A stretch of 35,561 nt of DNA from Bacteroidaceae bacterium (GTDB lineage: Bacteria > Bacteroidota > Bacteroidia > Bacteroidales > Bacteroidaceae), in NCBI GenBank assembly GCA_017536695.1, contig JAFXGX010000004.1, forward strand, positions 1 through 35,561, read 5' to 3'. The notes beneath the pieces were generated by a model. It was not told the origin of the DNA, made no database searches, and saw only the letters and a list, made by a program, of their open reading frames with translations. The translations under genes were made by a program, and so were the position numbers. Position 1 is the stretch's first letter, and the number at the start of each line of letters is the position of its first letter. Of this stretch, positions 11,846-35,561 are shown one piece after another.

Positions 11846-12427
11846 CTAAAGCATATTCTGCTTTTTCAACTCCTCAGCAACTAAAAGCACCTCTTTGTAC
11901 CACTCTTCGCCGAAGCGCTCTATGAGCGGTTCTTTCAGGAACTCATAGGCTCTGATGCCTTTGCGGCGGCCCTTGATGAAGGCACTGCTGCATACATCCC
12001 ACTTATGCAGGTTGACACCGATGTAGTCGCCCACCTTACGCAAGCGCACGGGGTAGAGATAACATGATATCGGTTTGCGCCATGTGGTGCGCCCTTCGCG
12101 ATACGCCTTGTCTATCAGGCATATGCAGTTACCGTTCTCATCACGCGACGCAAAGACGCAATCCTTGCCGTTCACGATAGATGTGACAAGGTCGCCGTCG
12201 CGGTCGTTATACACCACTCCTTGCTCCTCGACAACGGCACGAGCATCGGGAGTCATTTCGCCACCTACCACTTCATATGCCTCTTCGAGTTTCTCTACCT
12301 CATCCATAAGCACCGGCGCACCGGCATCGCCCTCAACGCAGCAAGCGCCCTTGCAGTGCGTGAAGTTACAGCAGAAATATTCCTGAAAGAGGTCGAAAGA
12401 GACTATTGTGTTTCCTATCTGTACCAT
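11846..12427 (-). CDS. DUF3109 family cysteine-cluster protein
   Basis: The protein has 193 residues and starts MVQIGNTIVSFDLFQEYFCC. The N-terminal cysteine cluster CC-x4-C-x3-CC (C19, C20, C25, C29, C30), the later DCVFA, NCICLID and ISCYLYPVR segments and HKWDVCSSAF are the conserved layout of DUF3109 in Bacteroidetes. Conserved cysteines with this spacing suggest metal (Zn or Fe-S) binding, as in the related YkgJ-like clusters; no reaction is known. It has neither a signal peptide nor a membrane helix, so it is cytoplasmic. It has the same orientation as gpmI upstream, but a 211-bp repeat-filled gap separates them, so co-transcription is doubtful. Confidence 0.85.
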   Translation of the reverse strand: MVQIGNTIVSFDLFQEYFCCNFTHCKGACCVEGDAGAPVLMDEVEKLEEAYEVVGGEMTPDARAVVEEQGVVYNDRDGDLVTSIVNGKDCVFASRDENGNCICLIDKAYREGRTTWRKPISCYLYPVRLRKVGDYIGVNLHKWDVCSSAFIKGRRKGIRAYEFLKEPLIERFGEEWYKEVLLVAEELKKQNML

Positions 12428-12454
12428 ATTGTTATTTTAAGTTTTAAATATTCA

Positions 12455-12600
12455 AACTCCCCCGCCCTACGGGCACCCCCTCTTTAAAAAGAGTGGGAGT
12501 TTTGGGAACAGCTATCCTCCTTGCGGAAAAGAGTGGGAGCTTAAAAAACAACTGTCCCTCTTTGCGAAAGAGGGACGAGCCGTTTACGGCGGAGGGAGTT
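12455..12600. repeat. Fourth interspersed repeat cluster
   Basis: It contains ACTCCCCCGCCCTACGGGCA, CCCCTCTTTAAAAAGAGTGG, CCCTCTTTGCGAAAGAGGGA and GCCGTTTACGGCGGAGGGAG: a run of three or four short hairpins in the gap between gpmI and the DUF3109 gene. On the minus strand they may also act as terminators for gpmI. Confidence 0.65.
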
Positions 12601-12638
12601 CGATGTTTACCGAACAGCACCTCCAACGATATTTATTT

Positions 12639-14138
12639 TTAAATCAGCGACTTGCCTGTCATTTCCGCAGGCACCTCAAGACCCATGATATTGAGGATTG
12701 TAGGTGCTACGTCGGCGAGGATACCATTCTCGATGGTTGCGTTCTCCTTGTTTGTCACATACACGCAAGGAACAGGGTTCAATGAGTGTGCTGTGTTGGG
12801 AGAGCCATCGGCATTGACCGCGTTGTCGGCATTACCGTGGTCGGCAATGATGATTGACTCATAGCCATGGTTGCGGGCAGCCTCAATGACATCCTTCAAA
12901 CATGCGTCGACAGCAAGAACAGCCTTCTCTATTGCGCTGTACACGCCTGTGTGACCGACCATGTCGCCGTTCGCGAAGTTTACCACGATGAAGTCGAACT
13001 TCTCGCTGTTAATCTCGTTGACAAGCTTCTCCTTAACCTCGTATGCGCTCATCTCGGGCTGCAGGTCATATGTGGCAACCTTTGGAGAAGGAACAAGGAT
13101 ACGCTCCTCGCCTTCGTACGGAGCCTCGCGACCACCATTGAAGAAGAATGTAACGTGTGCATACTTCTCGGTCTCGGCAATGTGGAGCTGTTTCATGCCC
13201 TGCTTTGCGATGTACTCGCCAAGAGTGTTCTCGACATTCTCCTTGTCGAAAAGGATATATACGCCTGTGAACTTTGCGTCGTACGGTGTCATGCAGTAGT
13301 ACTGCAGACCGGGGATAGTGTGCATGCCCTCGGCAGGCATATCCTCCTGTGTGAGGACCACTGTAAGTTCCTTCGCACGGTCGTTGCGGTAGTTAAAGAA
13401 GATGACAGCATCGCCCTCGCCGATGCGGCCGTCGAAATTGCTGTTCACGATTGGCTTGATGAACTCATCGGTAACACCCTCCTCGTATGACTCCTTTACG
13501 GCAGCAACCATGTCGGCAGCCTTCTTGCCCTCGCCGCTGACAATGAGGTCATAGGCAATCTTCACGCGCTCCCAACGCTTGTCACGGTCCATAGCATAGT
13601 AACGACCGATGATTGAAGCGAGCTTCAGGTTCTTCTGTGTGAGCTGCTCGATGAAGCCTGCACCGCTCTTTGGGTCGGTGTCACGACCGTCCATGAAACA
13701 GTGTACGTAAGCCTCCTCGACACCCTGCTCTACAGCGAACTGGTACATGGCCTCGAGATGCTCGAGTGAACTGTGTACGCCACCGTCAGATGTCAAGCCC
13801 ATGAAATGGAGTTTCTTGCCGTTCTTCTTTGCATACTCGACAGCCTCAACAAGACGTGGATTCTTCTTTATTGAGCCGTCAGCTATAGCGCGGTTAATCT
13901 TGAGAAGGTCCTGATATACGACGCGGCCGCCACCGATATTGAGGTGACCCACCTCGCTGTTACCCATCTGACCCGCAGGAAGACCTACGTTCTCACCGCT
14001 AGCCTGAAGCTGGGAGTTAGGGTAAACCGATACCAGATGATCCCAATATGGAGTAGGAGTGTTGAAGATAACATCACCCTTACCATGATTACCGACGCCC
14101 CAACCGTCAAGTATTACCAATAATGCTTTGTTTGCCAT
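12639..14138 (-). CDS. gpmI: 2,3-bisphosphoglycerate-independent phosphoglycerate mutase
   Basis: This glycolytic enzyme interconverts 3- and 2-phosphoglycerate using two Mn ions and a phosphoserine, and is cytosolic. ATG 14138 ([14 protein letters not shown]) was chosen over the longer frame, giving 499 residues, close to the family norm of about 505-515. Visible signatures are the metal-binding ILDGWG (D11), the nucleophile in [17 protein letters not shown] (S61), [24 protein letters not shown], and the C-terminal metal site [11 protein letters not shown] with HS-L-NPVP. All expected blocks are present, so it should be active. It is preceded by a TATCTTTG promoter (14215-14222). Confidence 0.97.
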
Positions 14139-20583: not shown

Positions 20584-21780
20584 TTAAATGTTTATAATTA
20601 TATCGCCGTCAACATCTGTCCTATATATGTTATTATTACACAGCATACTTAAATAAGAAAGCATATGTTTACTAGGATGTCCGTAATTGTTATTTGCGCC
20701 AACTGAAATTATAACATCCGTTGTTGGAGTAGAATATACACGATGTTTAGGAGCATTTTCACCTCCATGATGCGGTGCTATAAGAATATGATTATCAGTT
20801 GCTATATTCTGTTGTAATTCTTGATCATAAATATTCTTTGCTTGTATTAATCTTATATCCCCAGTAAAGTTCACACTGCTTTGCATTCCTTTAACAAACA
20901 TACATAATCCGCAATAATTTAGATTAGTACTCTTTTCTCCAATATAAATAGAAATATTCCCAACTCTTTTCCATAGATGCATAGATATGCCATTTGTTCG
21001 ATAAGTTGGTTGTATGCAATATACATTTCCTATACCCAATGCATTACAGATGTTATTATAAATATTATGAGATGTCAACGATTTCATTGCATCAACACAT
21101 ACAAATTTACTAAAACAATCTTGTATTGTCTGCAAATTCGCATATCGTAGACAATGAATATGATCCATATCCCAATGTGATATAATTAAGATCGGCTTAT
21201 CTCTTTCCAAGGTATTCCTTCTAGTATCAAATATTGTTTGTACTTCATATTTACTAGCATTTAGCGGAGCACCCAAATCATAAACTAATTTGATTATACC
21301 ATCTTCTAATACTTCATTCCAGTTGGCTTGATTGACATCTCGAACATTTAGGGTTAAATTATTGTTTGATAAATCTTGAATAATTAGTTCATTAGGATTA
21401 TTATTATGCAAAAGTTCTGCAGGGTCTAATAGCTCATGGGATTGCAACAACTCTTCTTGATCAATATAAGGCCACTTCATTGTTTCGCAATTATAAGTTC
21501 GCCCTATAAATAAAGACTCTTCATTTTGGATGAATTGTAGTTTATTAATCAACGCAAGATTAAGTTTATAATAACATCCTGAACGTAATCGTTTGTTTGT
21601 TTTAACATTGCATAGTTCCAAATAGGTATTTGTTTCCCCAAAGTTCTGATTGTTTTCACTTGAACTCACAAAAAGGGTTAAATCCTTTTTTAAGCGAAAA
21701 TCAATATAAACATCGTAAATGCTATCACCTCGCTTTTTCATATAATCAAGGTACACAATACATTCTCTTCCGAACCACAT
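20584..21780 (-). CDS. ComEC-like metallo-beta-lactamase-fold hydrolase
   Basis: The protein has 398 residues. The N-terminal half (1-150) is unrecognised; the C-terminal half is an MBL fold. It shows the metal site S-HWDMDH (H202, D204, D206, H207), FTGD (about 305-308), LIAPHHGGENA (H337, H338) and SVGANNNYGHPSKHM (about 362-376), ending with TDVDGDIIINI. The GxNxxGHP and late DG(D/S)I blocks match the MBL domains of ComEC/Rec2-related proteins, but there is no membrane part or signal peptide. It is therefore a soluble phosphodiesterase- or nuclease-like enzyme. The first motif has Trp-Asp in place of the common x-His-x (HxHxDH becomes HxDxDH). It lies in the AT-rich island between the AlbA gene and the XRE gene, 168 nt behind the former. 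Confidence 0.75.
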   Translation of the reverse strand: MWFGRECIVYLDYMKKRGDSIYDVYIDFRLKKDLTLFVSSSENNQNFGETNTYLELCNVKTNKRLRSGCYYKLNLALINKLQFIQNEESLFIGRTYNCETMKWPYIDQEELLQSHELLDPAELLHNNNPNELIIQDLSNNNLTLNVRDVNQANWNEVLEDGIIKLVYDLGAPLNASKYEVQTIFDTRRNTLERDKPILIISHWDMDHIHCLRYANLQTIQDCFSKFVCVDAMKSLTSHNIYNNICNALGIGNVYCIQPTYRTNGISMHLWKRVGNISIYIGEKSTNLNYCGLCMFVKGMQSSVNFTGDIRLIQAKNIYDQELQQNIATDNHILIAPHHGGENAPKHRVYSTPTTDVIISVGANNNYGHPSKHMLSYLSMLCNNNIYRTDVDGDIIINI

Positions 21781-21948: not shown

Positions 21949-23322
21949 TTAATTTTTATGTTCTTGAGAATCTAATAAATTAAATCCTTTATCCGTCAAT
22001 TGATACTTCTGATTCCTGCTGTTAGGTTTTTCTGGCATACTCTGCTCCAATATACCAGCCTCCAAAAGTGGATGAATATATTTTCTCCTAAATTTAGTTC
22101 TATCGGTAAGCCCCATAAATGCTAACATTTCACCAAAAGAGCGTGCTTCAGTACAGAACACAATCAGTTTATCGAGGTTTTCAACATCTGGAATTGACTG
22201 GGTGCCGACTGGGTGCCGACTGGGTGCCGACTGGATGCCATCTTGTGCTCTTATAGGCAAAATAATACGGATAAAGTTATCCGTAAACTTGAAACAATCC
22301 TCACCGTATGCACGCAGAATACGGGGTATGCCGGAGCCTAACGACTCTACCAACTCCACATCACGATAGATACGCATCAATTCCTTGTTGCGCGGGATAG
22401 ATATACCATTGAAGAACTCTTCTTTCGTAAGAGATTCAGGCAAACGACCGGCAGAGGTTATCTCAAGTCTATCGGGGAATATCTCAAATTTGGGCGGTAC
22501 TTCAAACGAATAATCGTTATGCACTATTGCATTGATAACTGCCTCGCGCAAGGCAACCTTATTCCACAATGGAGTTTCAATACGCTCCATCGGGGTTATC
22601 GTTGCTGCCACCTTGTTCTCAATATCCAGTTTTGATAATACACTCTTGGTCGCTTTGATAAGAGAGCAATATCCATATTCGTTGTTCTCAACCAAATCGC
22701 ATCGGTCAAGGCTTGAATACTTTGCCACCTTGATTGAATTGCCATTCTCATCAGCCAACAGATATGCCACATAGTTGTACTTGCCATCATCTGTAAGCAA
22801 CTCCAATGTACGCTTAAAGTTATCATTGAGTCTCTTGCCTCGCTCATCATAGTAGATACGCAACTGTTCAAAACTCAAATCTTGACGATTTGATACAATA
22901 CGACCAATGGAGTTACGAGTACGCATAGCAAACAGACGGTCAATCTGTTCCTGCGGCATAGGCTCCGCTGATGTTCCCACACGCATATATGCTCCGCGTG
23001 GAGTCATACCATACTTCGTTTTGAAATATGGCTTCTCAATTCCACTCGCCACAGTAACCTTGATAATGCTGCGTCCATCCTTTTGCTCCTCGGCAATATC
23101 AAATAAGCCCATAGCAGAAGGTAAAATGTTGTGCTTGATGCGGTCTTTCAACCTCAACATACAATCATCCACATCACTAACGCCCACAGTTGAGCCATCC
23201 TTATCAATACCGATATAGATGTATCCGCCTTCCTTGTAGTTAAGGAACGCCACAACCTCCTTCTCGATATCAAGTTCCGAGGTTAATTCTCTTTTATATT
23301 CTATGCGGTTGGTTTCTGACAT
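21949..23322 (-). CDS. AlbA_2 (Schlafen-type)/HATPase regulator with an in-gene 11-bp tandem repeat
   Basis: The start is placed at ATG 23322 (MSETNRIEYK); the frame is open for nine more codons. The protein has 457 residues. An AlbA_2 DNA/RNA-binding domain covers about 5-135: E-K-VVAFLNYKEGGYIYIGID, then GAYMRVGTS. The middle region leads to a C-terminal HATPase_c_4 segment (ALREAVINAIVHNDYS at 257-272, GSGIPRI at 329-335). A repeat-coded linker SAPSRHPVGTQS (365-376) precedes a winged helix (about 383-450). Such proteins are annotated as ATP-binding putative transcriptional regulators and occur often in defence or mobile islands. The linker is made of four 11-bp units, so a copy-number change would shift the frame ahead of the winged helix. 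The next gene upstream, UPF0489, is 35 nt away, so they are probably one operon. Confidence 0.85.
   Translation of the reverse strand: MSETNRIEYKRELTSELDIEKEVVAFLNYKEGGYIYIGIDKDGSTVGVSDVDDCMLRLKDRIKHNILPSAMGLFDIAEEQKDGRSIIKVTVASGIEKPYFKTKYGMTPRGAYMRVGTSAEPMPQEQIDRLFAMRTRNSIGRIVSNRQDLSFEQLRIYYDERGKRLNDNFKRTLELLTDDGKYNYVAYLLADENGNSIKVAKYSSLDRCDLVENNEYGYCSLIKATKSVLSKLDIENKVAATITPMERIETPLWNKVALREAVINAIVHNDYSFEVPPKFEIFPDRLEITSAGRLPESLTKEEFFNGISIPRNKELMRIYRDVELVESLGSGIPRILRAYGEDCFKFTDNFIRIILPIRAQDGIQSAPSRHPVGTQSIPDVENLDKLIVFCTEARSFGEMLAFMGLTDRTKFRRKYIHPLLEAGILEQSMPEKPNSRNQKYQLTDKGFNLLDSQEHKN
22196..22239. repeat. Four tandem 11-bp repeats inside the AlbA_2 gene
   Basis: GACTGGGTGCC occurs three times exactly (22196-22228), followed by GACTGGATGCC. 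Because 11 is not a multiple of 3, the repeat is read through all three frames, and loss or gain of one unit moves the gene out of frame. Confidence 0.95.
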
Positions 23323-23357
23323 AAATAAATATTGTTTAATTAATAGCAATAAGCAAG

Positions 23358-24218
23358 TTATATTATAGACATCGTGCCAAGATTCCCTTCAAACAAATAT
23401 TGATCAAGATATTCCAATATTTTATTAGATTCACCAATACCGCCACAACATTCAGGCTCTCTACATATTGTAATAAATTGGCAACGAGATATTATTTCTC
23501 TCATAAAGAGTCGTACTTCATCATGTTCATAGTACATTCTTCTAAAAATAGTTTCTGGCCAAGCATATATTTTCTCTTCGCATTCAGTCGTAAAACAATC
23601 TAAATCGAAATCTAAAATAAATGGAGTTGTTGCTTCCTTTGAGAATTTATTATATCTCCCATATGGAGGCTGATTATATTCAAACATATTCCTTACGGCA
23701 GTATAGTAAGGTTCTTTAATAACATTGTCACCAAGACAACCTCTACAGCCAAGTGACGTATTCAGATGGTTTATTGAATATAATTCATGTACTTTCCCAT
23801 CTGTTGAAACGAAACAATTGTTTAAAGCACGAATATTGCTATTGTCCTGCTGACCAATCACTACCGAGTTGTTTATCAACCCCAATTCCATACCAGCTAA
23901 CAACCAATCATCATCCAAATATCCTAAATCAAATTCAACAAAAGACCAAAAGTTAGGACTGGAAACATCTTTTAATTCTGCTGCACCCCAACGCTTGAAT
24001 AGTTCACTTTTGACTATATTTGGATTGCATGCATCATCATGACGATCAAAATATATTATATTGGGGCAACTTGTAAACATGCCAAGTTTAAACGCTTCAA
24101 ATAGAATATTTAATACATATCTATGATCATCATATACTATAATATATTTCTCATTATATCTGTAGACCTCTACATTAGAACGGAATGTAAGTTCTCCTAA
24201 TGACCTTAATTCTTTCAT
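23358..24218 (-). CDS. UPF0489 family protein (arginase/deacetylase-like metal site)
   Basis: The protein has 286 residues. IIYFDRHDD (D58-x-H60-D61) and FILDFDLDCF (D203-x-D205-x-D207) are two Asp/His clusters placed like the bimetal site of the arginase/agmatinase fold. REPECCGG (253-260) is the usual late block. These three blocks, with the N-terminal YDDHRYVL, match UPF0489. The biochemical activity of this family is not known; a metal-dependent amidohydrolase-type reaction is inferred from the motifs. It lies 21 nt behind the membrane coiled-coil gene and 35 nt ahead of the AlbA gene, so it is the middle of a tight minus-strand operon in the island. It also has a Cys-rich stretch (LGCRGCLG, CREPECCGG). 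Confidence 0.75.
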   Translation of the reverse strand: MKELRSLGELTFRSNVEVYRYNEKYIIVYDDHRYVLNILFEAFKLGMFTSCPNIIYFDRHDDACNPNIVKSELFKRWGAAELKDVSSPNFWSFVEFDLGYLDDDWLLAGMELGLINNSVVIGQQDNSNIRALNNCFVSTDGKVHELYSINHLNTSLGCRGCLGDNVIKEPYYTAVRNMFEYNQPPYGRYNKFSKEATTPFILDFDLDCFTTECEEKIYAWPETIFRRMYYEHDEVRLFMREIISRCQFITICREPECCGGIGESNKILEYLDQYLFEGNLGTMSII

Positions 24219-24239
24219 ATATTCAATTATGGTATAACT

Positions 24240-24935
24240 TTATTTTGATAGCAAAGGGACATTTAGAGCGTATCTAAAGGTCTCTATTAATCGTTTTCTC
24301 GCAGTTCTATATTTGACCATTTCAAATTCAGCAAAAATATCAAAACATTTAATGGCTCTCTCTTTCTCTGATAGTGCCAAATCTCTCACAACCTCAATTG
24401 CCTGATTAAGCAGTCCCAGAAATTCGAGGCAGATATTTAGAATTTCCTCATATTGATCAAGAGAAAAGAAAAATTCATTTGATGTAAACCAATTATCTGT
24501 TTCTAAAAGGTAATCCCGCATTTCAAATACTATCTCACTATAATTAACTATACAGCCTTTAGGGCAATCAGGCTTACAGGGTTTTTCAAAATCCACATTA
24601 TCTTTGCAATCGTAATCTTTGTATGCAGCCAGTTTTGTACTATATTCTTCTATCTTTTGCATCCTTATACAAGCTTCCTTAAATATGGACATACGCTCTG
24701 AGAATACATTCCCATAAGAGATTTTTAAGACCTCAATTCGTGAATCGAGTATAGATTTGTATGCTGCAAGATCTTTGTCCAATTGCGCTTGGTACTTTTT
24801 ATTTCTACGAGCAAACCATTCATCAATAAGGTTTCTGCCAAATATCCTTGCAATGGCAAAAACGATAGCTGTAAGTCCAGTTATTCCACCAAATACAACA
24901 GAGACCCATTCAAATATAATCTTCCAGTTCTCCAT
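24240..24935 (-). CDS. Membrane-anchored coiled-coil protein of unknown function
   Basis: The protein has 231 residues. A single N-terminal membrane helix (about 9-33, WVSVVFGGITGLTAIVFAIA) is followed by a basic stretch (RRNKK) and a helical, heptad-like region (about 48-110). The rest is helical with a cysteine cluster at about 123-139 (C-K-DNVDFEKPCKPDCPKGC; three of four Cys closely spaced). The positive-inside pattern puts the long C-terminal part in the cytoplasm. No family is recognised. It is separated by only about 20 nt from both the HEPN gene and the UPF0489 gene, which suggests a membrane sensor or anchor for that cluster. Confidence 0.7.
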   Translation of the reverse strand: MENWKIIFEWVSVVFGGITGLTAIVFAIARIFGRNLIDEWFARRNKKYQAQLDKDLAAYKSILDSRIEVLKISYGNVFSERMSIFKEACIRMQKIEEYSTKLAAYKDYDCKDNVDFEKPCKPDCPKGCIVNYSEIVFEMRDYLLETDNWFTSNEFFFSLDQYEEILNICLEFLGLLNQAIEVVRDLALSEKERAIKCFDIFAEFEMVKYRTARKRLIETFRYALNVPLLSK

Positions 24936-24954
24936 ATTCTAAAATATTAATTCC

Positions 24955-26835
24955 TCATACGCCTTTCAATCTCTTTATCTCGGATGAAATATTGCTTTCA
25001 AGTATTTGATACTCTGAATATATCTTCAGCAATGTATTACCTATATCCATTCCATGCTTATTGTAATGATATCTCACGGCTTGAATTAGAGAACCACTTA
25101 TAAATTGAGCTTTGTATGCGTATAGTTTAATTATAAATTCAGGACATACAGCATTATGAACAATCATATTCCTCAATCTATAAATCAAAGTCACATCATC
25201 AGATACTAAACTCTTGAAATCTATAATACATTTCTTATCCTCATAAAAGGATTGAAGAGCTATTAGTTCTCGCTTAAATATTTCATCATTAATTTCTGCT
25301 ATTAGTCTCGGTAGTTCTACAAAGAATTTTGACAACTCAATTTTGTCTCCTGGCTGTATATTTAATTTAGCGGACTCTATTGTTTTAGAAGTAAACCCAT
25401 AGTAATTATTAAATTGTTGTGTAGTCATAACTAAGTGAGTATATATGTTATTAGCATACGAATAAAATCTATTTCTAGCCATAACACTTGAGCAAATCTC
25501 CTTTGCAACATTAATAATACTACTGTCTTTGGGATTAATATTTATTCTAATAGAATTTGATACTTTAAGAATACTCTCTAAAGCGACCCAACTATATAAA
25601 AGTTTGTCTTCGAATTTAGTCGCACATTTTGCTTTTCTATACCAATGTGTCGACTTGCTAATCTTTTTAAAAGTATTGTTTGATATATCACTATTTTCTG
25701 TAAACTCTTTAAGCCAATCGTTTATATCATCACCATATGGAGTAAGGTCAAACGCCATTAAATCTCTGTATTGTCGCATATGATCAACATCATCCTCTAC
25801 AGAATGGTGAGAACCACACACTTGGTCATCAACTACTATAGCTGCAAATTGCTTACTGACAGAAAGTTTATCTTTGCTTCTAATATTAAACGATAGATAA
25901 TCCAACAAACTTTCAACTCTTTGTCTTGCGTAATTTATTGATGTGTTTAAGAATCTATGTTTAACTGTTACTGCGATATTAACATATTGAGAAGAGTCTG
26001 GTTTTTCGATTTCATTTAGACTATCTTTGGGCAAATAAGCTGCTTTATCAATAGAGTATAGGTGCACATCGTGAAAATGGTAACTAATACTACCTTTAAC
26101 ACCTAATAATCTTAGAATAACATATCCATCCTTTGCCTCTTTATGAAAGTGTGTCAATATATTGCTAATATACTCTTTTGCACTGCGGGACTTATATCTG
26201 ACGCTTACTGCTTTATGATATTCTTCTTCTGACACAAAGTCCTTTCGTTGTAATTCATAAAACGAGTCTTCGCAAATAATCACATTACAACCCTCTGCCA
26301 TCACGACAGTATCTTCCTTAATCAAAGAGGAAACATCCTCAATGTTCATACCTAAGCATACAAATTCTTGAATAAATAGGTCGGTATACAGACATATCTC
26401 ATTTTTTATATTTTCGTTTAGTTTCTGTTCGATTTCGAGAACGCATTGTAATTTATCTACTATCTGGTTCAGATAATGATGTTCATTCATTGATAACAAT
26501 ATCTTCTCTAAAATCGTTTTCACAACTAGAGGAGAGTTATCCCAATTCTTTAATGCTACACCTGTTTCAACTTTATAAAGTTCCGAAAAAGCGCAATCCA
26601 GCTTTAGAATACGCCCTAGCAACTCTTTAAATAGACTTCTATTATCCTTATTGGCAAAATCATTATGCTCGATTTCGGAGATAATCTCTGATAGTAAGAA
26701 GTGAGGGCTATTTAATTGGATTCCATAGTCATCCAAATCGCATAGTTCTTTTATGCGATGATCCCAATATTTCAACCAGAACTTTAGCGGTGTGTCAGTT
26801 GGATAGTCCAATATTTCCTTTATCCTATCATTCAT
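24955..26835 (-). CDS. Large HEPN-domain protein (ApeA-like C-terminus)
   Basis: ATG 26835 (MNDRIKEILD) was taken; the track start two codons earlier is GTG. The protein has 626 residues. The first 380 residues match nothing I recognise and are mixed alpha/beta. The C-terminal part is helical. LLYSWVALESILKVSNS begins the HEPN bundle, and YRLRNMIVHNA carries the R-N-x3-H motif (R555, N556, H560) of HEPN ribonucleases. The AlEs...RNxxxH pairing is the pattern of Apea-like HEPN defence proteins, where the N-terminal part senses and HEPN cuts RNA. Infection-triggered RNA cleavage is therefore the likely role, by inference. It is the first gene of the cluster with the membrane coiled-coil, UPF0489 and AlbA genes. 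Confidence 0.72.
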   Translation of the reverse strand: MNDRIKEILDYPTDTPLKFWLKYWDHRIKELCDLDDYGIQLNSPHFLLSEIISEIEHNDFANKDNRSLFKELLGRILKLDCAFSELYKVETGVALKNWDNSPLVVKTILEKILLSMNEHHYLNQIVDKLQCVLEIEQKLNENIKNEICLYTDLFIQEFVCLGMNIEDVSSLIKEDTVVMAEGCNVIICEDSFYELQRKDFVSEEEYHKAVSVRYKSRSAKEYISNILTHFHKEAKDGYVILRLLGVKGSISYHFHDVHLYSIDKAAYLPKDSLNEIEKPDSSQYVNIAVTVKHRFLNTSINYARQRVESLLDYLSFNIRSKDKLSVSKQFAAIVVDDQVCGSHHSVEDDVDHMRQYRDLMAFDLTPYGDDINDWLKEFTENSDISNNTFKKISKSTHWYRKAKCATKFEDKLLYSWVALESILKVSNSIRININPKDSSIINVAKEICSSVMARNRFYSYANNIYTHLVMTTQQFNNYYGFTSKTIESAKLNIQPGDKIELSKFFVELPRLIAEINDEIFKRELIALQSFYEDKKCIIDFKSLVSDDVTLIYRLRNMIVHNAVCPEFIIKLYAYKAQFISGSLIQAVRYHYNKHGMDIGNTLLKIYSEYQILESNISSEIKRLKGV

Positions 26836-26927
26836 ATACACAACTGTGTTTTCATATTTCTAGATAATGGGGGCTCTATATTTTCAATGAGATCTATAAA
26901 CGGTTGTTCTCACGTTTGGGCACACAT

Positions 26928-27437
26928 TTAATGTAATAGACGATGTTTGCTTGAGTCTTCTGTCCAATACAGATACTCTAAAACATTCTTTAATTTCGCA
27001 CCCTTTTTCTTGTCAACATTGGCAATTATCAATAGCTGGATAATCATCTTTATTGTTGTTTCAGGGACTTCATGTCCAAACGTAATTGTCTTGCCATTAT
27101 TCATCTCCGATAAAGGTGTTTTTGTACGAATATCTGTTGCTTCGTATCCATATGCGCTATATTGCCCTTTTCTAGTGCGTTTATATTTCCATGTATAAAT
27201 ATAAGAGTCACCGAAAGCGCCCTCAGTATATTCTGATATAAAGTTCTTTACCTTATAACATATAACTATTTTACGAATAGCATATATGAGTACCAATATA
27301 CCTAAGGATATACACAACCAAATCCACAAAGGTAAGGGGAATTCCCACACAAAAGATTCAGTTATTGCATATATTATTCCTGAAGCTATTAGGCTACTTA
27401 TAACACCTATTATAATTCCTTTAAATGTATCGTTCAT
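26928..27437 (-). CDS. Two-TM membrane protein at the end of the restriction-like operon
   Basis: The frame is open back into the helicase/methyltransferase gene. ATG 27437 (MNDTFKGIII) is preferred because it lies past that gene's stop and starts directly at a membrane helix; ATG 27470 is the alternative. From 27437 the protein has 169 residues. The two hydrophobic helices are at about 5-25 (GIIIGVISSLIASGIIYAIT) and 35-57 (PLWIWLCISLGILVLIYAIR). A soluble domain of about 110 residues follows, with KTITFGHEVPETTIKMIIQL and a final EYLYWTEDSSKH. No family is recognised. It sits 40 nt behind the helicase gene on the same strand, so it may be an accessory of that system, or the first gene of the HEPN cluster 92 nt further on. 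Confidence 0.6.
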   Translation of the reverse strand: MNDTFKGIIIGVISSLIASGIIYAITESFVWEFPLPLWIWLCISLGILVLIYAIRKIVICYKVKNFISEYTEGAFGDSYIYTWKYKRTRKGQYSAYGYEATDIRTKTPLSEMNNGKTITFGHEVPETTIKMIIQLLIIANVDKKKGAKLKNVLEYLYWTEDSSKHRLLH

Positions 27438-27477
27438 ATTTTTGTTCTTTTTTGCATAAGACAAATACATTTCATCT

Positions 27478-30400
27478 TTACTCCATTGGTTTGATTTTGG
27501 ATTCGATGAAGGATATTTCCGATTCATCAAGTCCATATTTAGCGTAGAGTTGCTGGTCTATCTCTGCAACTGACTTACTCCAATCAATGTTTGATTCGCT
27601 TGTAAAGTTCTGTAATGGAACAAGTCTCCAAACCTCTTTACTATTATCTTGTGTAGCTTTTAATATTCCCAACATAACACGAGCAAACTTACTCTTAATG
27701 TATTTGAGACAAGCTTCAGCCTCATTGACATTGTCAAATGATCCAATACTAATAAACGATTGGGTATAGCCGATTAACGGCTCGCCGATTAACGGCGTAG
27801 ACAACACCTCTCCTAATGCTCCTGATCCATTGCTTTTAGGAACAAGAACCTTATATTTCATTAGATTCTGATGAGACTCAATGTATTGAGGCGAAATATA
27901 TTTGTATGTTCTTATATTTTTAACTAATCCGAGGATGCAAAGGTCTTCGTTACTACTCCTTGTATCCTTAAAAATCTCTTTAAAATCAAATATTGAGGTT
28001 GTTAATCGTTTCTCTTTACCATCGCTACCTATGCGGTCTTTTAGATATGGAAAATCTTTGTATAGTTCTCCTAAAATAAATTTATTTTGAGGATAAATTA
28101 TATTATTCAAGGTACCAATAGTGCGAGCAGACACTTTTCTAATGATAGAATTTAATTCATCAAAAGCAGTGAATGTTCCAACGCTTCCAAAATCTTCAAC
28201 AGCATTTCTGAATGTAACGGCAACTCCCCCCTTTATATCCACATTTGGGAAGACATCTGTACTTTTAGGCTTATACCATATAACCTTAAAATGTGGATCA
28301 TTCAGAACTCGGTTATTCCATTCTGCAGGGGTTTTGCCAGCATTGAATAAAAATCGTGCTGGAGTAATAAATGAAACCTTGTCGCAAATCTGGAATGCAA
28401 CATCCATAAACAAGTGATAGATTGGAGTGTCACTTGTTCGGTCTGTTGTTATTTGGTAAGGTGGATTACCTACTATTGCTGTAAATTTCATATCGTTATC
28501 TTCGTTTGCTTTCCAATAATTCTTTCCCTGCTTCATTTGAGAGACAAATTTAGCAGTCTTATGTGATATTTGATTGATTAAATCCTCATAGTAACGAGTA
28601 TTTACCTTCACGGGGCGGAAGCCTCGCAATGTTCTGCGAGTGATGCTCTTTGCCATCTGCGTTTTGCAGAGAACAAAGATATTTTCACACAGTACCGCAT
28701 CCCAAACTTTGAGGTGGCGTTCTGGTGTATCCTCCATAGTATCTGATGCATCGAGTTTGTCCGATAATCGAGTGCGATATATGGAGTACGCCATATAGAG
28801 CGGATAGAGACCCGATTTGGAGTTAATCTCCAGAATACGGGCATCGGAGGCGAAAACCTCGCGGGTAACATCGCCATTATCAACAAAACGAGGCTCTACA
28901 ATCTGTTTCTCTTTTGTTTCATCGTAGAACACCCAGCCGCCCAAGCAATCGCCCAGGTGCATATTGACAACACGCCAAGGAGTCAAGACGGTCTCCTTAT
29001 CTGGATTGCGGAAGGTGTTGAAGATTGCTGTTATACGCTCAATGCGGTCTTCTATATCGAGAGCATCAGCCGCCTTTGCCATAGCGCGGATGCGCTTACC
29101 TGCGGAGCAGAATACTTCTGGGTCGTAATACTTCTTAAACTGCTCAAATATTTCTTTTGTTACACCTTTTGGCATAAACTCATCCCAAGAGCCGTCATCT
29201 ATAAGTGAGGTAAAGTTGTCGAGGGTAATTTCCTTGCTCTCGTCAGTCAAATCAGCACCATATATCATCAACGGCATACGGATAGAGATGCCGCGAAGAA
29301 TCGAAACAGCTGTATCGCGATTCTTACGCTTCTCCGCCTTCTCTTCAAGCAGACGCTTTTCCTCCTCTGTTAACTCTTTCTTTTTACGCTTCTTCTCCTC
29401 AGCCTTCTCTAATTGTTCGTGTTCCTCATTCGTAAAGCCTTGGTTGTTAATATCTATCTCGCCACTCTTAGGCATAGCCTTGGTAGAGCCGATAATCTTT
29501 TTTAGTTTTGCGAACTCTTGTAACTCAAGAGAGTCGAGGCGCATCAAATCATCATTATATAGATAACCATCCTCAAAACCATTACGGACAACACGCTCAA
29601 CATACACTTTCTTTAACTGCTGAAGCATATTTGGCACATCGTAGGATATCATCTTAGAGCCTTCGTATGCGATAATCGGACAGAAGTTGATAAAGTCGCC
29701 CACAGCTTTGCGATCATCGCTCGTAGTCTTACCTGCCTTCGCTGAAATCTTGGCAGTTTCTGCAATAACCTTTAATGTGCGGTCAGGTGCAAAGTCAAAA
29801 ACAAAACACTCTTCTTTTACCTTACCACCAATAGTAGCAGGAGTTTGAACGCGGAAAATAGTCTGCATATAGCTTGAAGCCGCAGTGCTAAACGAGCCTG
29901 CAAGCATAAAGACTGCTGTCCACGCTTTTACACTCACGCCCGTTGTCAAGCGACCACAAGAGAGAGTAATCGTATATGTTTCCTCTGGCTTATTGCCGAT
30001 AGCCTTATTTACAAGTTCGAGAGCATCATCTCGCTCCTGGTCTTCATCACCCTCTCCAGCAACATTTACCACCTGGAATTGGCTAAATACAGCGTGAGAC
30101 TGCAACATCGCGCTCAATGCCTTTGCTGCTTTTACGCCAGGCACAATCCAAAGCGAATGGCGGAAGTTGTCGCGGTACTCCTCTGTAGAATATGGATAAT
30201 TGCTGTCTGCATCCTTTTTGCAAATCAAATTAAGAAACGATTCAACATCCCTCTTATGAACAAACTCGCCAGTTTCATCTACGCGGAAAAACTCTCGGAA
30301 GTTGAACGCCAACTCTGAGTCTCCATAGCCGTCTAAAAGTTTATTGAGATCGTAAGTATAGATGTTAAGACGAGGCAGACCTGCGTATGGGTTAGGATCG

Positions 30401-31455
30401 CCAAAGTGTGTCAAATCCCACTCTGCTTTGGCGCGTTGCTCCATCACATAGTCCCAAGTGTATATTTCGTCCTCCTTGTAGTCATCAAACAGATTGAATG
30501 GTGTACCTGACAAACGAAGTATCTTTGTTTGAGTCTTGGTTAGTTCCTTCATTACCGCCTCACCAAGTTCTGTTTTCGTTCCTTCGTGTGCCTCATCAAC
30601 AATAATTAAGTCCCAAGGCGTTGCAAATACTTGGTCATTCTTGTCGAAGTTGCCACCAACAAGCGATGAGCCACGCAAATCCTGCATTGAGGCAAAATAG
30701 ACATAGTGAATTCCCTCTTTTGCAACAAGACGCTCCAATGATGTATGACTCTCGCCATTATTCTTCGAGCCATAACGATACTTTGGAGTGTCGTAGAATA
30801 TCTTGGTAAAGTCCTCAAACCAACCTGCATCGACAACGGGGCGGTGCGTAAGGATAAGGGTACGGGCAAAGTCCATCTCCTTGACGACCTGCAAGCCAGA
30901 GAGGGTCTTTCCAAAACGCATCTTTGCGTTCCAAAGCATCTGATTACTCTTCTTAAATTGCTTTTTGGTCTTATCGATGGCATCGCGCTGTTCTGGACGG
31001 AAAATAATCGGACTTCGCTCGGTACTTACCTCTTTTGCAGAGAGAGACATTCGACACTCCTTCGCTGCATGGATAGCATTCTTAACGGTCTCCAAATCTG
31101 TAATAAACCACTCGTTGGCTTTATTCTCAGTGTCAAAAACCTTCTTCTTAATACCAGAACGCTCAAGCACCTTATGCACCTCACCATCGGTTAAGCTCAT
31201 AATTGCTCCGCCACGAGTGAATATTGAGAGTTCGGTGTATAGTAACTCGTAGACAATACCAGCCGTCTGCGTGTATTGATTGATACGCTTCTTGGCTGCT
31301 ACATTCAAAAGGTGGCTCGATGGTGTTAAACCCCACAAGTTCTCCTCATCCGAAAGAGTCGCCTCTCCGACTTTAAGGCATCCTGCGTGAGCTTTATCAT
31401 TTATGCGGAAAACATAAATAAGTTTCGCTTTTAACGATGAAACAAATTTAGCCAT
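27478..31455 (-). CDS. GIY-YIG-like/SF2 helicase/adenine methyltransferase (Eco57I-type) fusion
   Basis: The protein has 1325 residues. The N-terminus (10-80; LIYVFRIND...LKVGEA...KRINQYT) looks like a GIY-YIG/T5orf172 nuclease domain. A DEAH-type SF2 helicase follows, with Walker A AKMRFGKT (177-184), DEAH (287-290), LSGTPF and a late TTGVSV...QTIFRVQTP block to about 560. A highly charged helix (about 675-715, KKRKKKELTEEEKRLLEEK) leads to the methyltransferase half with motif IV NPPYQI (997-1002) and SFITPARFLF. This is the layout of single-chain Type II/ISP-like restriction-modification enzymes, but the FTP and motif I parts are in the neighbouring 325-residue protein. It would cut and modify DNA, with the helicase translocating. 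It lies 26 nt behind that partner. Confidence 0.82.
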   Translation of the reverse strand: MAKFVSSLKAKLIYVFRINDKAHAGCLKVGEATLSDEENLWGLTPSSHLLNVAAKKRINQYTQTAGIVYELLYTELSIFTRGGAIMSLTDGEVHKVLERSGIKKKVFDTENKANEWFITDLETVKNAIHAAKECRMSLSAKEVSTERSPIIFRPEQRDAIDKTKKQFKKSNQMLWNAKMRFGKTLSGLQVVKEMDFARTLILTHRPVVDAGWFEDFTKIFYDTPKYRYGSKNNGESHTSLERLVAKEGIHYVYFASMQDLRGSSLVGGNFDKNDQVFATPWDLIIVDEAHEGTKTELGEAVMKELTKTQTKILRLSGTPFNLFDDYKEDEIYTWDYVMEQRAKAEWDLTHFGDPNPYAGLPRLNIYTYDLNKLLDGYGDSELAFNFREFFRVDETGEFVHKRDVESFLNLICKKDADSNYPYSTEEYRDNFRHSLWIVPGVKAAKALSAMLQSHAVFSQFQVVNVAGEGDEDQERDDALELVNKAIGNKPEETYTITLSCGRLTTGVSVKAWTAVFMLAGSFSTAASSYMQTIFRVQTPATIGGKVKEECFVFDFAPDRTLKVIAETAKISAKAGKTTSDDRKAVGDFINFCPIIAYEGSKMISYDVPNMLQQLKKVYVERVVRNGFEDGYLYNDDLMRLDSLELQEFAKLKKIIGSTKAMPKSGEIDINNQGFTNEEHEQLEKAEEKKRKKKELTEEEKRLLEEKAEKRKNRDTAVSILRGISIRMPLMIYGADLTDESKEITLDNFTSLIDDGSWDEFMPKGVTKEIFEQFKKYYDPEVFCSAGKRIRAMAKAADALDIEDRIERITAIFNTFRNPDKETVLTPWRVVNMHLGDCLGGWVFYDETKEKQIVEPRFVDNGDVTREVFASDARILEINSKSGLYPLYMAYSIYRTRLSDKLDASDTMEDTPERHLKVWDAVLCENIFVLCKTQMAKSITRRTLRGFRPVKVNTRYYEDLINQISHKTAKFVSQMKQGKNYWKANEDNDMKFTAIVGNPPYQITTDRTSDTPIYHLFMDVAFQICDKVSFITPARFLFNAGKTPAEWNNRVLNDPHFKVIWYKPKSTDVFPNVDIKGGVAVTFRNAVEDFGSVGTFTAFDELNSIIRKVSARTIGTLNNIIYPQNKFILGELYKDFPYLKDRIGSDGKEKRLTTSIFDFKEIFKDTRSSNEDLCILGLVKNIRTYKYISPQYIESHQNLMKYKVLVPKSNGSGALGEVLSTPLIGEPLIGYTQSFISIGSFDNVNEAEACLKYIKSKFARVMLGILKATQDNSKEVWRLVPLQNFTSESNIDWSKSVAEIDQQLYAKYGLDESEISFIESKIKPME

Positions 31456-31481: not shown

Positions 31482-32459
31482 CTACTTGAATAAATCAATA
31501 AAGCGAATTTTCTTGCCCAACTTGTTTGTCTGAGGATCTTTTGCTCTCCAATCCTTAATCAAGCAATAAATTCCAGTGTGATTATAGTATCCTCCATCGG
31601 CGCATCCTTTGCAAGGAGTCTTTATATCATCGCCAAACAGAGACGGGATGATAGTATCTTTACAAGAGTTTGGCACAACACCTTTAAGACCATCCATCTG
31701 CCAGATATTCCACGATACGATGTACGCTATATATTTGATAGATGCTGCTAACGGGTGTTTCCCAAACTTTAACTCATAGTTCTCAATGAAAGTGTACAGC
31801 ATAGCCTCTCGCGCAAGCAGTAGATTATCTCCTTGCCACTCAAAGCCATATATGCTCTTATAGGCTTCTTGCGCCGCAGTCAGCCACTCACCAGATGTAT
31901 GGACATTCTCATTAATTACACGCAACTTTCGATCAAGAAGTCCTATGCGTTTTTCAACGGGGATTAGTTCACCAGTGGTCGCATCGTAACGGCTGGTAAT
32001 ATATGGAGCCTCACCACATGTTATCTCCATACGGTTATCTCTTACATAGTCTTTCCAAGTTTTGCCCTCTGGGAACACAATAGACTCAGCGGTTGGAATC
32101 CATGAATGTACGCCATTCTCTTCAACTTCAACATTGAACACACCCTCGCATCCGAACCATGCATTGTCGATCAAATTATTTTGGGCATTGCATACCCAAG
32201 ACGGAGTAAATACCTCTGCCATATCTCTCGAACGAGCAGTCTGCTGAAGCCTATCCTTCAAGACACGAGGTATAATCTTATTGTTGTCGCAAACTTTCTC
32301 GTATGTAATCTCATCAGACTCAGCATAACCATCTCCCCATTGCTCATAATCTTTGGTCGCCCAAAGTATATTGCGCTGGGTAGTGTGGTCACGAAGTAAT
32401 GCATCCATAATATCCTTCGGGATGTTACCTTCAAGTATATCGACTTTCTCTTTCTTCAT
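31482..32459 (-). CDS. Restriction system 'subunit M': first half of a split adenine methyltransferase
   Basis: ATG 32459 (MKKEKVDILEGNIP) was chosen; the longer frame starts with TTG at 32474. The protein has 325 residues. It starts with IPKDIMDALLRDHTTQRNIL and carries AEVFTPSWVCNAQNNLID (FTP at 84-86), then MEITCGEAPYITSRYD (about 144-159), a motif I-like turn where the SAM loop normally is, and later NSC...PCKGCADGGY...C, possibly metal-binding. The catalytic NPPY is missing here and is supplied by the downstream 1325-residue protein. These proteins are usually annotated as 'restriction endonuclease subunit M'. The gene follows an XRE gene by 42 nt and precedes the helicase fusion by 26 nt, a clear operon. 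Confidence 0.82.
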   Translation of the reverse strand: MKKEKVDILEGNIPKDIMDALLRDHTTQRNILWATKDYEQWGDGYAESDEITYEKVCDNNKIIPRVLKDRLQQTARSRDMAEVFTPSWVCNAQNNLIDNAWFGCEGVFNVEVEENGVHSWIPTAESIVFPEGKTWKDYVRDNRMEITCGEAPYITSRYDATTGELIPVEKRIGLLDRKLRVINENVHTSGEWLTAAQEAYKSIYGFEWQGDNLLLAREAMLYTFIENYELKFGKHPLAASIKYIAYIVSWNIWQMDGLKGVVPNSCKDTIIPSLFGDDIKTPCKGCADGGYYNHTGIYCLIKDWRAKDPQTNKLGKKIRFIDLFK

Positions 32460-32501
32460 AGTTTTATGCGACAAATTTCTGTGTAAATTGATAGTCCATA
32501 G

Positions 32502-34377: not shown

Positions 34378-35561
34378 TTATCCTAAATTCACTATTGCAC
34401 TCTTCACATTCATCATATCCTTCAATATTGAACTGTCAAGTACCTTTGCATAGTGTTGTGTCATTCTTATATTGGCGTGACCGAGCATCTTTGCTACATT
34501 CTCTATGCTCACGCCATTTGCCAAACATACAGATGTTGCATAGGAGTGGCGAGCAACGTGAGTGCTGAGGTGTTTCTGGATTCCACAGACATCGGCTATC
34601 TCTTTCAGGTAACTATTCATATTCTGATTGCAAGGAACAGGCAGTAATACGCCACGCTTGATGCAGCTGGGGTGATTCTCGTACTTCTTGAGTATTGCCA
34701 ACGGAATATCCAACAAAGGAATATTACACATATTGTTTGTCTTTTGGCGTGTCTTACGAATCCAATAGTGCCCGTTATTGTCCTGCACGATATGTTCGGC
34801 AGCGAGTTGCTGAACATCAATAAATGCCAACCCCGTAAACGATGCGAATATAAATATATCACGCACCAACGCAAGGCGTGGAACGGCAAACTCCTTTTGG
34901 TAGATAGTCATCAGCTCGTCCATCGTTAGGAACTCACGCACAACCTCCTTTTCGTGAAACTTGATGCCTGCAAAAGGATTCTTGTCAATCCACTCGTTGG
35001 CAAGTGCAAGGTTGATAATCTTTTTCAAGCACTTCATATAACGGATAACGGTATTCTGCTGGCAATTCTTCTCGGTCTTTAAATAGAACTCAAATGCACG
35101 CACCAATTCGCCACTCACCTCTGTAATTGGCAAGTCCTCCTTATCGTATTTCAATTTGATTAGTTCGGCAAGATAACGGGTACAACTTTCGTAACGCCTT
35201 ACGGTGATTAGGGCAAAATCTTTACCCACTAGGGCTCGGCATTGCTCGTTATGTTCACGCATAGTACCAATGATGGTGCGTACTTGCTCCACCTTTTTGT
35301 CCACTCCAAAGAACTTTTCCTGTAATATTCGGGCAGTGATAAGTTCCCCATTCTCTTCGAGTTGTGTATAAATTCGGTGGAGTTTGATGCGACTCTCCTC
35401 AATGTAATTGTTTAGCTCGGTAGATTTGCGACTTTTACCCCTCGCACACTCCTTTGCCTGGTTCCACGACACAGGCTCGATGCTTTTGCGGATGTTTGTT
35501 TCTACTCTTGCGCCATTGACTGTGATACGCATACATACTGAAGCCTCTCCGTTCTTCAGCA
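34378..35561 (-). CDS. Bacteroidales tyrosine recombinase/integrase, 5' end beyond the window
   Basis: The frame has a Met at 35532, but codons upstream stay open to the edge and read LKNGEASVC-MRITVNG, the usual family N-terminus, so the gene is cut by the window end. Numbered from that Met (384 residues), a SAM-like core-binding domain covers about 80-180 and the catalytic domain about 200-370. The catalytic domain has H-V-A-R-H (H325, R328), MLGHANI and QHYAKV (Y361 nucleophile). The Arg of box I is replaced (SFTGLAFID where TGLR is usual), a feature I recall for CTnDOT-type integrases. It catalyses site-specific insertion of the island. It is convergent with the excisionase operon, with a terminator and a 170-bp inverted repeat between. 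Confidence 0.93.
   Translation of the reverse strand, partial: LKNGEASVCMRITVNGARVETNIRKSIEPVSWNQAKECARGKSRKSTELNNYIEESRIKLHRIYTQLEENGELITARILQEKFFGVDKKVEQVRTIIGTMREHNEQCRALVGKDFALITVRRYESCTRYLAELIKLKYDKEDLPITEVSGELVRAFEFYLKTEKNCQQNTVIRYMKCLKKIINLALANEWIDKNPFAGIKFHEKEVVREFLTMDELMTIYQKEFAVPRLALVRDIFIFASFTGLAFIDVQQLAAEHIVQDNNGHYWIRKTRQKTNNMCNIPLLDIPLAILKKYENHPSCIKRGVLLPVPCNQNMNSYLKEIADVCGIQKHLSTHVARHSYATSVCLANGVSIENVAKMLGHANIRMTQHYAKVLDSSILKDMMNVKSAIVNLG

Follow-up and report, generated by a model that had tools for sequence, protein, structure and literature searches.

The closest described counterparts of the locus studied here are ApeA and the peptide arginases. ApeA is named an antiviral defence protein in its PDB entries (Ec2ApeA 9hxb, 9hxd, 9hxe, and 9hxi; Ec4ApeA 9hxm), and a passage of PMC3710099 places ApeA HEPN proteins "in epsilonproteobacteria embedded in R-M operons", that is, in restriction–modification (R-M) operons. 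Peptide arginases such as OspR convert arginine to ornithine via a two-manganese centre, according to excerpts of PMC12707348 and PMC10028609. As stated in the former excerpt (PMC12707348), the UPF0489 family includes BipC, an arginase acting on ribosomally synthesised and post-translationally modified peptides (RiPPs), and peptide-arginase activity has been characterised for some members of this family. In this study, we analysed a window of 35,561 nucleotides (nt) at the start of contig JAFXGX010000004.1 of a Bacteroidaceae bacterium (order Bacteroidales, phylum Bacteroidota), in which four genes, here called A to D, had been proposed by an initial annotation to form one undescribed defence cluster. 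We believe it likely that the locus is a defence-island run, in which an R-M system is followed by the independent and interchangeable add-on genes A, B, and C, with D as a neighbour. The firm basis of this reading is homology, motifs, and gene neighbourhoods. The four genes are as follows:

24955 to 26835, minus strand: gene A, ApeA-like HEPN protein (626 amino acids (aa) from ATG; R555-N556-x3-H560; conserved WVALES at 416)
24240 to 24935, minus strand: gene B, protein with an N-terminal transmembrane (TM) helix, a probable coiled coil (by eye), and a Cys cluster (231 aa)
23358 to 24218, minus strand: gene C, UPF0489 protein, peptide-arginase-like (286 aa; PF12640)
21949 to 23322, minus strand: gene D, AlbA_2 and HATPase_c_4 protein with a Fic-like C-terminal domain (family scan)

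We are confident, from profile comparisons, that A is a distant full-length homologue of ApeA. The HEPN motif of A is RLRNMIVH, in agreement with the RNxxxH motif that the initial annotation had placed at R555–H560, and RLRN(M/L)I(V/A)H was found in all five alignment rows that reach the motif (the window and four relatives); the sixth row, from locus L003, is cut before it. The profile of these six rows (the window, L002, L003 (partial), L006, L011, and L012), whose five relatives are 29–51% identical to A of the window, was searched against 177,635 distinct PDB sequences. The best match was Ec2ApeA (four sequences, best E 3.7e-8), followed by Ec4ApeA (E 0.0017), and one other chain was found at E ≤ 1, at 0.83. 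The match to Ec2ApeA consisted of three collinear blocks, namely an N-terminal helical block, the W-AIES helix, and the HEPN motif near the C-terminus (IYRxRNxxxH in both). In the last block, IYRLRN..H of the A profile was paired with IYRTRNLIVH of ApeA, and R555 and H560 were aligned. Seven ApeA loci were retrieved from IMG/VR using a piece of Ec2ApeA. The comparison of A with ApeA by hhalign gave 94.7% with an E of 6.3e-8 (a one-pair E-value) over 474 columns at 20% identity, and the A profile scored real ApeA at 29–31 bits, compared with 11.2 bits for the best of 5000 shuffles. The lengths are also similar (626 aa for A, and chains of 593 and 619 for ApeA). Because A matches the solved ApeA over its full length, its N-terminal half, which had been regarded as novel, is no novelty. 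We therefore read A as a divergent ApeA, in which the N-terminal half probably serves sensing and the C-terminal half is predicted to be a HEPN RNase.

Several results weigh against this assignment. In the reverse search with an ApeA profile, A of L002 alone exceeded all 5000 shuffles (14.1 vs. 8.5 bits), whereas A of the window, L006, and L012 scored 7.0, 7.0, and 6.8 bits, respectively, within the shuffle range. With A of the window alone as a query, phmmer returned no ApeA at E ≤ 10. The search of its own genome with PF18739 (HEPN_Apea) did not find A at E ≤ 10, PF18739 was absent from the hmmscan of the C-terminal part of A, and the PADLOC scan gave no match for A. The AlphaFold model of A, made from 3 sequences, had a predicted local distance difference test score (pLDDT) of 43.1, too poor for fold comparison, so that the link to ApeA rests on sequence profiles. 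Neither Pfam nor NCBIfam gave A a family above the cut-off; a match to Formyl_trans_N lay below the cut-off and was disbelieved. Since PF18739 leaves A unlisted, we term it ApeA-like, without membership by the rule of Pfam. A also differs from ApeA in that its 3′ partner genes vary.

A is rare in the genome samples searched. Relatives were found in 3 of 399 family genomes (own included) and in 4 of 393 order genomes (own and one weak match included), and the own genome alone matched among 296 genomes across the phylum; the three samples overlap slightly. The weak match, in genome G667 (E 9.8e-4), was short (profile positions 19–63) and was left out of the loci. Six A loci were studied (L002, L003, L006, L011, L012, and L013). 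Two A loci lie in genome_contigs, and the named A relatives belong to Xylanibacter and a Prevotellaceae bacterium, which makes the genome of the window probably Prevotellaceae-like. As A is cut at its 3′ end in L003 and at its 5′ end in L013, five sides of each kind were visible. Viral, phage, or plasmid relatives were not listed for A, B, or C, and the ApeA piece had no match in plasmids and phages.

On the 5′ side, a methyltransferase adjoins A in two of the five loci and a restriction-gene remnant in one. In L002 and L003, A begins 5 nt past the last methyltransferase open reading frame (ORF) of a helicase/methyltransferase set (the helicase label in L003 was given by eye, and the methyltransferase of L002 spans two overlapping ORFs). 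These sets had no similarity to the restriction protein of the window at E ≤ 0.01, which indicates that different restriction systems share the slot. Directly upstream of A in L011 there is a tail remnant 45% identical to the last 71 residues of the window restriction protein. A restriction neighbourhood is thus common to A relatives and the ApeA HEPN proteins of the passage in PMC3710099. The picture is not uniform, however: upstream of A, no restriction gene or other defence gene was recognised in L006, L012 has a retron-like set in place of a restriction gene, and in the window a gene of 202 aa separates A from the restriction gene. In L012 (L012:3105-10555), the A relative is preceded by a reverse transcriptase of the retron type (PADLOC RT_VI, E 2.5e-71), an AAA/HNH pair (PDC-M62), and a second gene that we take to be HEPN-like from its RNKIVH motif. 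On the 3′ side, A is followed by a TIR gene in L002 (split over two frames, 12002–12798) and L006 (12672–13418), a Fic gene at a distance of 2 nt in L011, a gene for a protein of 483 aa in L012, in which TM stretches and a Cys cluster were recognised by eye, and a gene of no recognised family in L013. The distance to the partner was 53 to 108 nt in L006, L012, and L002. The TIR protein of L006 matches PADLOC SpbK (E 1.9e-31), whereas no SpbK was found among the window genes scanned.

Gene C passed the PF12640 (UPF0489) cut-off narrowly, at 27.2 vs. 27 bits. Its residues H32, D58, H60, D62, D205, and D207 correspond to all six metal ligands of OspR (a His, DxHxD, and DxD), so that C shares both the UPF0489 domain and the six ligand residues with OspR (8brp) and BipC. 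All six are invariant between C and its two close relatives in L035 and L036 (60 and 62% identical), while H32 is lost in the distant relative of L034 (21% identical). The arginase-like metal motifs seen in C earlier are therefore present, and the description of C as a metal enzyme of unknown activity gave way to the peptide arginases of this family (excerpt of PMC12707348). We believe that C is probably a manganese-dependent ureohydrolase, namely a protein arginase of the peptide-arginase kind. The single PDB chain that the C profile found at E ≤ 10 was 8brp, a peptide arginase, with a weak match (E 0.54). One point counts on the other side: the first motif of C is DDHRY, compared with EEHxE of the peptide arginases, with the His kept and the glutamates lost, and for this reason C is termed arginase-like.

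C is also uncommon. The protein search of 251 family genomes returned its own genome alone, and among 178 order genomes PF12640 matched in 5, counting its own, with 3 of these five above the cut-off. The C profile matched in genome G478, but 17 genomes related to G478 gave no match. A fourth C relative, a UPF0489 stretch in G475, holds stops and was left out. The location of the C relatives in type I restriction operons is the most surprising part of this analysis. The two close relatives begin 10 and 12 nt past hsdS, in the accessory slot right after hsdS of type I operons that carry SoFic and AbiH add-ons. The operon order is hsdM–Fic (SoFic)–hsdS–C–TIR–AbiH–(125-aa ORF)–hsdR in L035:2833-13690 and hsdM–Fic–hsdS–C in L036, where the contig ends ahead of any hsdR. 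This placement rests on two operons, which tells against generalising it, and near the L034 relative, which lies close to a contig end, no defence gene was recognised by eye. The setting also differs from those of OspR and BipC, in that no RiPP precursor or maturase was recognised beside C by eye, no dedicated search having been made. The window differs in turn from the type I operons, since its restriction neighbour is a ResIII–Eco57I fusion and C is the fourth gene after this fusion. No report of UPF0489 or peptide-arginase enzymes in restriction operons was found in the open-licence PMC literature. We tentatively suggest, as a possibility that we consider rather doubtful, that C may represent an as yet unreported clade of protein arginases that form part of restriction systems, and which in infection would convert arginine to ornithine on a defence or phage protein. 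The boldest version, in which C would silence the neighbouring RNase (A) by stripping the guanidine from a catalytic arginine and thus act as a new post-translational antitoxin, is perhaps conceivable and very improbable; most of the probability lies with the broad version of a restriction-linked protein arginase.

Gene B has a hydrophobic stretch at about residues 6–33 and 7 Cys, among them C110, C120, C124, and C128, and B thus appears to be an accessory protein anchored in the membrane, with a Cys cluster that probably binds metal. Besides its own genome, one relative was found among 251 family genomes, and among 198 order genomes its own genome alone matched. This relative (L017:1156-1872) is 22–24% identical, keeps C110, C120, C124, and C128, and sits downstream of a DpnII system (D12 methyltransferase, DpnII nuclease, and N6_N4 methylase). 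Downstream of the B relative there is a 350-aa protein (L017:76-1128), HEPN-like by eye, which matches the unnamed phrog_19461 (E 5.1e-22) and had no Pfam match above the cut-off. Relatives of A, B, and C thus each adjoin a restriction system elsewhere, each of a different kind. Weak matches of HamA and AbiTi to short stretches of B and of the 202-aa protein were given no weight.

The other features of the locus are as follows:

26928 to 27536, minus strand: 202-aa protein with hydrophobic stretches, between A and the restriction gene (ORF)
27478 to 31455, minus strand: restriction–modification protein, ResIII helicase and Eco57I methyltransferase (PADLOC REase_MTase_IIG, E 8.6e-47)
31482 to 32474, minus strand: upstream neighbour of the restriction protein, with a match to a PADLOC Type II methyltransferase model (PDLC03390, E 4.2e-116)
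20584 to 21780: metallo-beta-lactamase-like gene, downstream of D (motif HWDMDH)
34378 to 35532: tyrosine integrase near the island (family scan)

Genes A to D are indeed co-directed on the minus strand with short gaps of 19 (A–B), 21 (B–C), and 35 nt (C–D), as had been noted before. The last gap uses the D start (21949–23322) that was set by the relative of D in L028, whose start is MSETNRI; an alternative GTG start of A at 26841 would add 2 residues. The hydrophobic N-terminal stretch and Cys cluster of B were likewise borne out, with the coiled coil probable by eye, and so was D as an AlbA_2 protein, to which HATPase_c_4 and the Fic-like C-terminal domain are added. The claim of an AT-rich island beside a restriction system held for the restriction system and for the low guanine-plus-cytosine (GC) content of A, B, and C, and did not hold for D: GC was 0.311–0.345 in A, B, C, the 202-aa gene, and the metallo-beta-lactamase-like gene, and 0.418 in D (0.433 at third codon positions, GC3) and 0.422 in the restriction gene. 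The ORF of the 202-aa protein overlaps the 3′ end of the restriction gene and had no family above the cut-off in the Pfam, PADLOC, and NCBIfam scans. The ORF at 31482–32474, which had no Pfam family above the cut-off, stops 26 nt ahead of the start of the restriction protein, and an NPPY motif lies in the second ORF; from their sequences, the two ORFs may be one split system. The gene at 20584–21780, which is presumably metallo-beta-lactamase-like from its HWDMDH motif, had a ComEC model match far below the cut-off (E 2.5e-4) and two unnamed PHROG matches. We take the tyrosine integrase to be of the kind associated with Bacteroidota. Promoter and terminator sites were no more numerous than in shuffles.

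Whether the four genes form one system was judged from their linkage elsewhere, using tblastn at E ≤ 0.01, a threshold that diverged B or C relatives would escape. B, C, and D were found at 0 of the 5 visible 3′ sides of A relatives, and the single D match in the A loci, which covered the last 75 residues of D, fell in a different L002 gene at a distance of more than 2 kb. The profile that matched in G478 found C in none of the seven genomes with relatives of A or B (one of these genomes is 72% complete), and by tblastn A, B, and D were absent from the C loci L034, L035, and L036. D itself matched in 6 of 7 genomes searched, and its one close relative, 73% identical, lies in a 10.8-kb stretch of L028 in which A, B, and C are absent and the surrounding genes were judged by eye to be ordinary chromosomal ones; upstream of this relative the contig breaks off after 1.1 kb. 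Given its deviating GC and a close relative that stands apart from A, B, and C, we read D as a neighbour and no part of a unit, probably an independent and unrelated regulator beside the run. On this linkage, which the initial annotation had itself named as a ground for refutation, the undescribed system of A, B, C, and D was rejected, since the loci of A, C, and D relatives lack the other members, although the sample is small. The common direction and short gaps speak for such a system; set against the GC and GC3 of D, the L028 locus, and the lack of D beside any A relative, we regard it as most improbable. What holds up of the initial annotation as a whole is that A carries a conserved HEPN motif and lies in defence surroundings; the idea of one four-gene system is not supported.

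A smaller unit fares somewhat better. A, B, and C could be one operon, with A as an RNase effector, B as a membrane anchor or sensor, and C tuning or inhibiting A through modification, for example by turning its catalytic arginine into ornithine. Their tight gaps and similar low GC mean that they may well be one transcript here, and we infer such co-transcription, which counts against fully independent add-ons. The single B relative also adjoins a HEPN-like protein (the 350-aa protein of L017, by eye and without Pfam support), and L012 has a TM and Cys-cluster protein 3′ of A, yet one with no blastp similarity to B at E ≤ 1. The absence of B and C beside A relatives, of C from the seven genomes, and of A, B, and D from the C loci stands against the operon, and we hold it to be unlikely. 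Another explanation makes A the HEPN toxin of an ordinary toxin–antitoxin pair, with its 3′ neighbour as the antitoxin. The partner can indeed be very close (2 nt for Fic in L011 and 19 nt for B in the window), but its family differs in most loci, with likely effectors such as TIR and Fic among them and no single antitoxin family, and it is well separated in L006, L012, and L002. The full-length match to ApeA, a named antiviral defence protein, also speaks against a pair of this kind, which we consider quite unlikely. An R-M system followed by single, interchangeable add-ons, with D beside them, therefore remains our preferred reading.

In the mechanism that we infer for these add-ons, restriction would cut the incoming DNA and A would form a second line behind it. 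By analogy with ApeA, A would stay inactive before infection, and deoxydinucleotides, as small products of DNA breakdown, might then switch on RNA cleavage. ApeA is reportedly activated by deoxydinucleotides, according to the title of a 2026 preprint in the reference list of PMC13405049; that this activation is known to us by title only counts against the picture. Such deoxydinucleotides could come from restriction plus exonucleases. An excerpt of PMC11706625 describes nucleases that are specific for deoxydinucleotides and lie close to phage-defence genes, including those of type I restriction. This fits a deoxydinucleotide signal, though it is about other loci. RNA cleavage by A would halt the infected cell, C would turn one or more protein arginines into ornithine, and B may anchor something at the membrane.

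The claimed new system is thus replaced by a testable picture, in which restriction loci gather single add-on genes. One of these is a distant ApeA that the models of Pfam and PADLOC used here leave unlisted, which suggests that current models overlook some ApeA-like genes. To our knowledge, the conversion of protein arginine to ornithine in bacteria has so far been described in peptide biosynthesis alone, and if the C relatives are active, phage defence would gain a new chemistry in this conversion.

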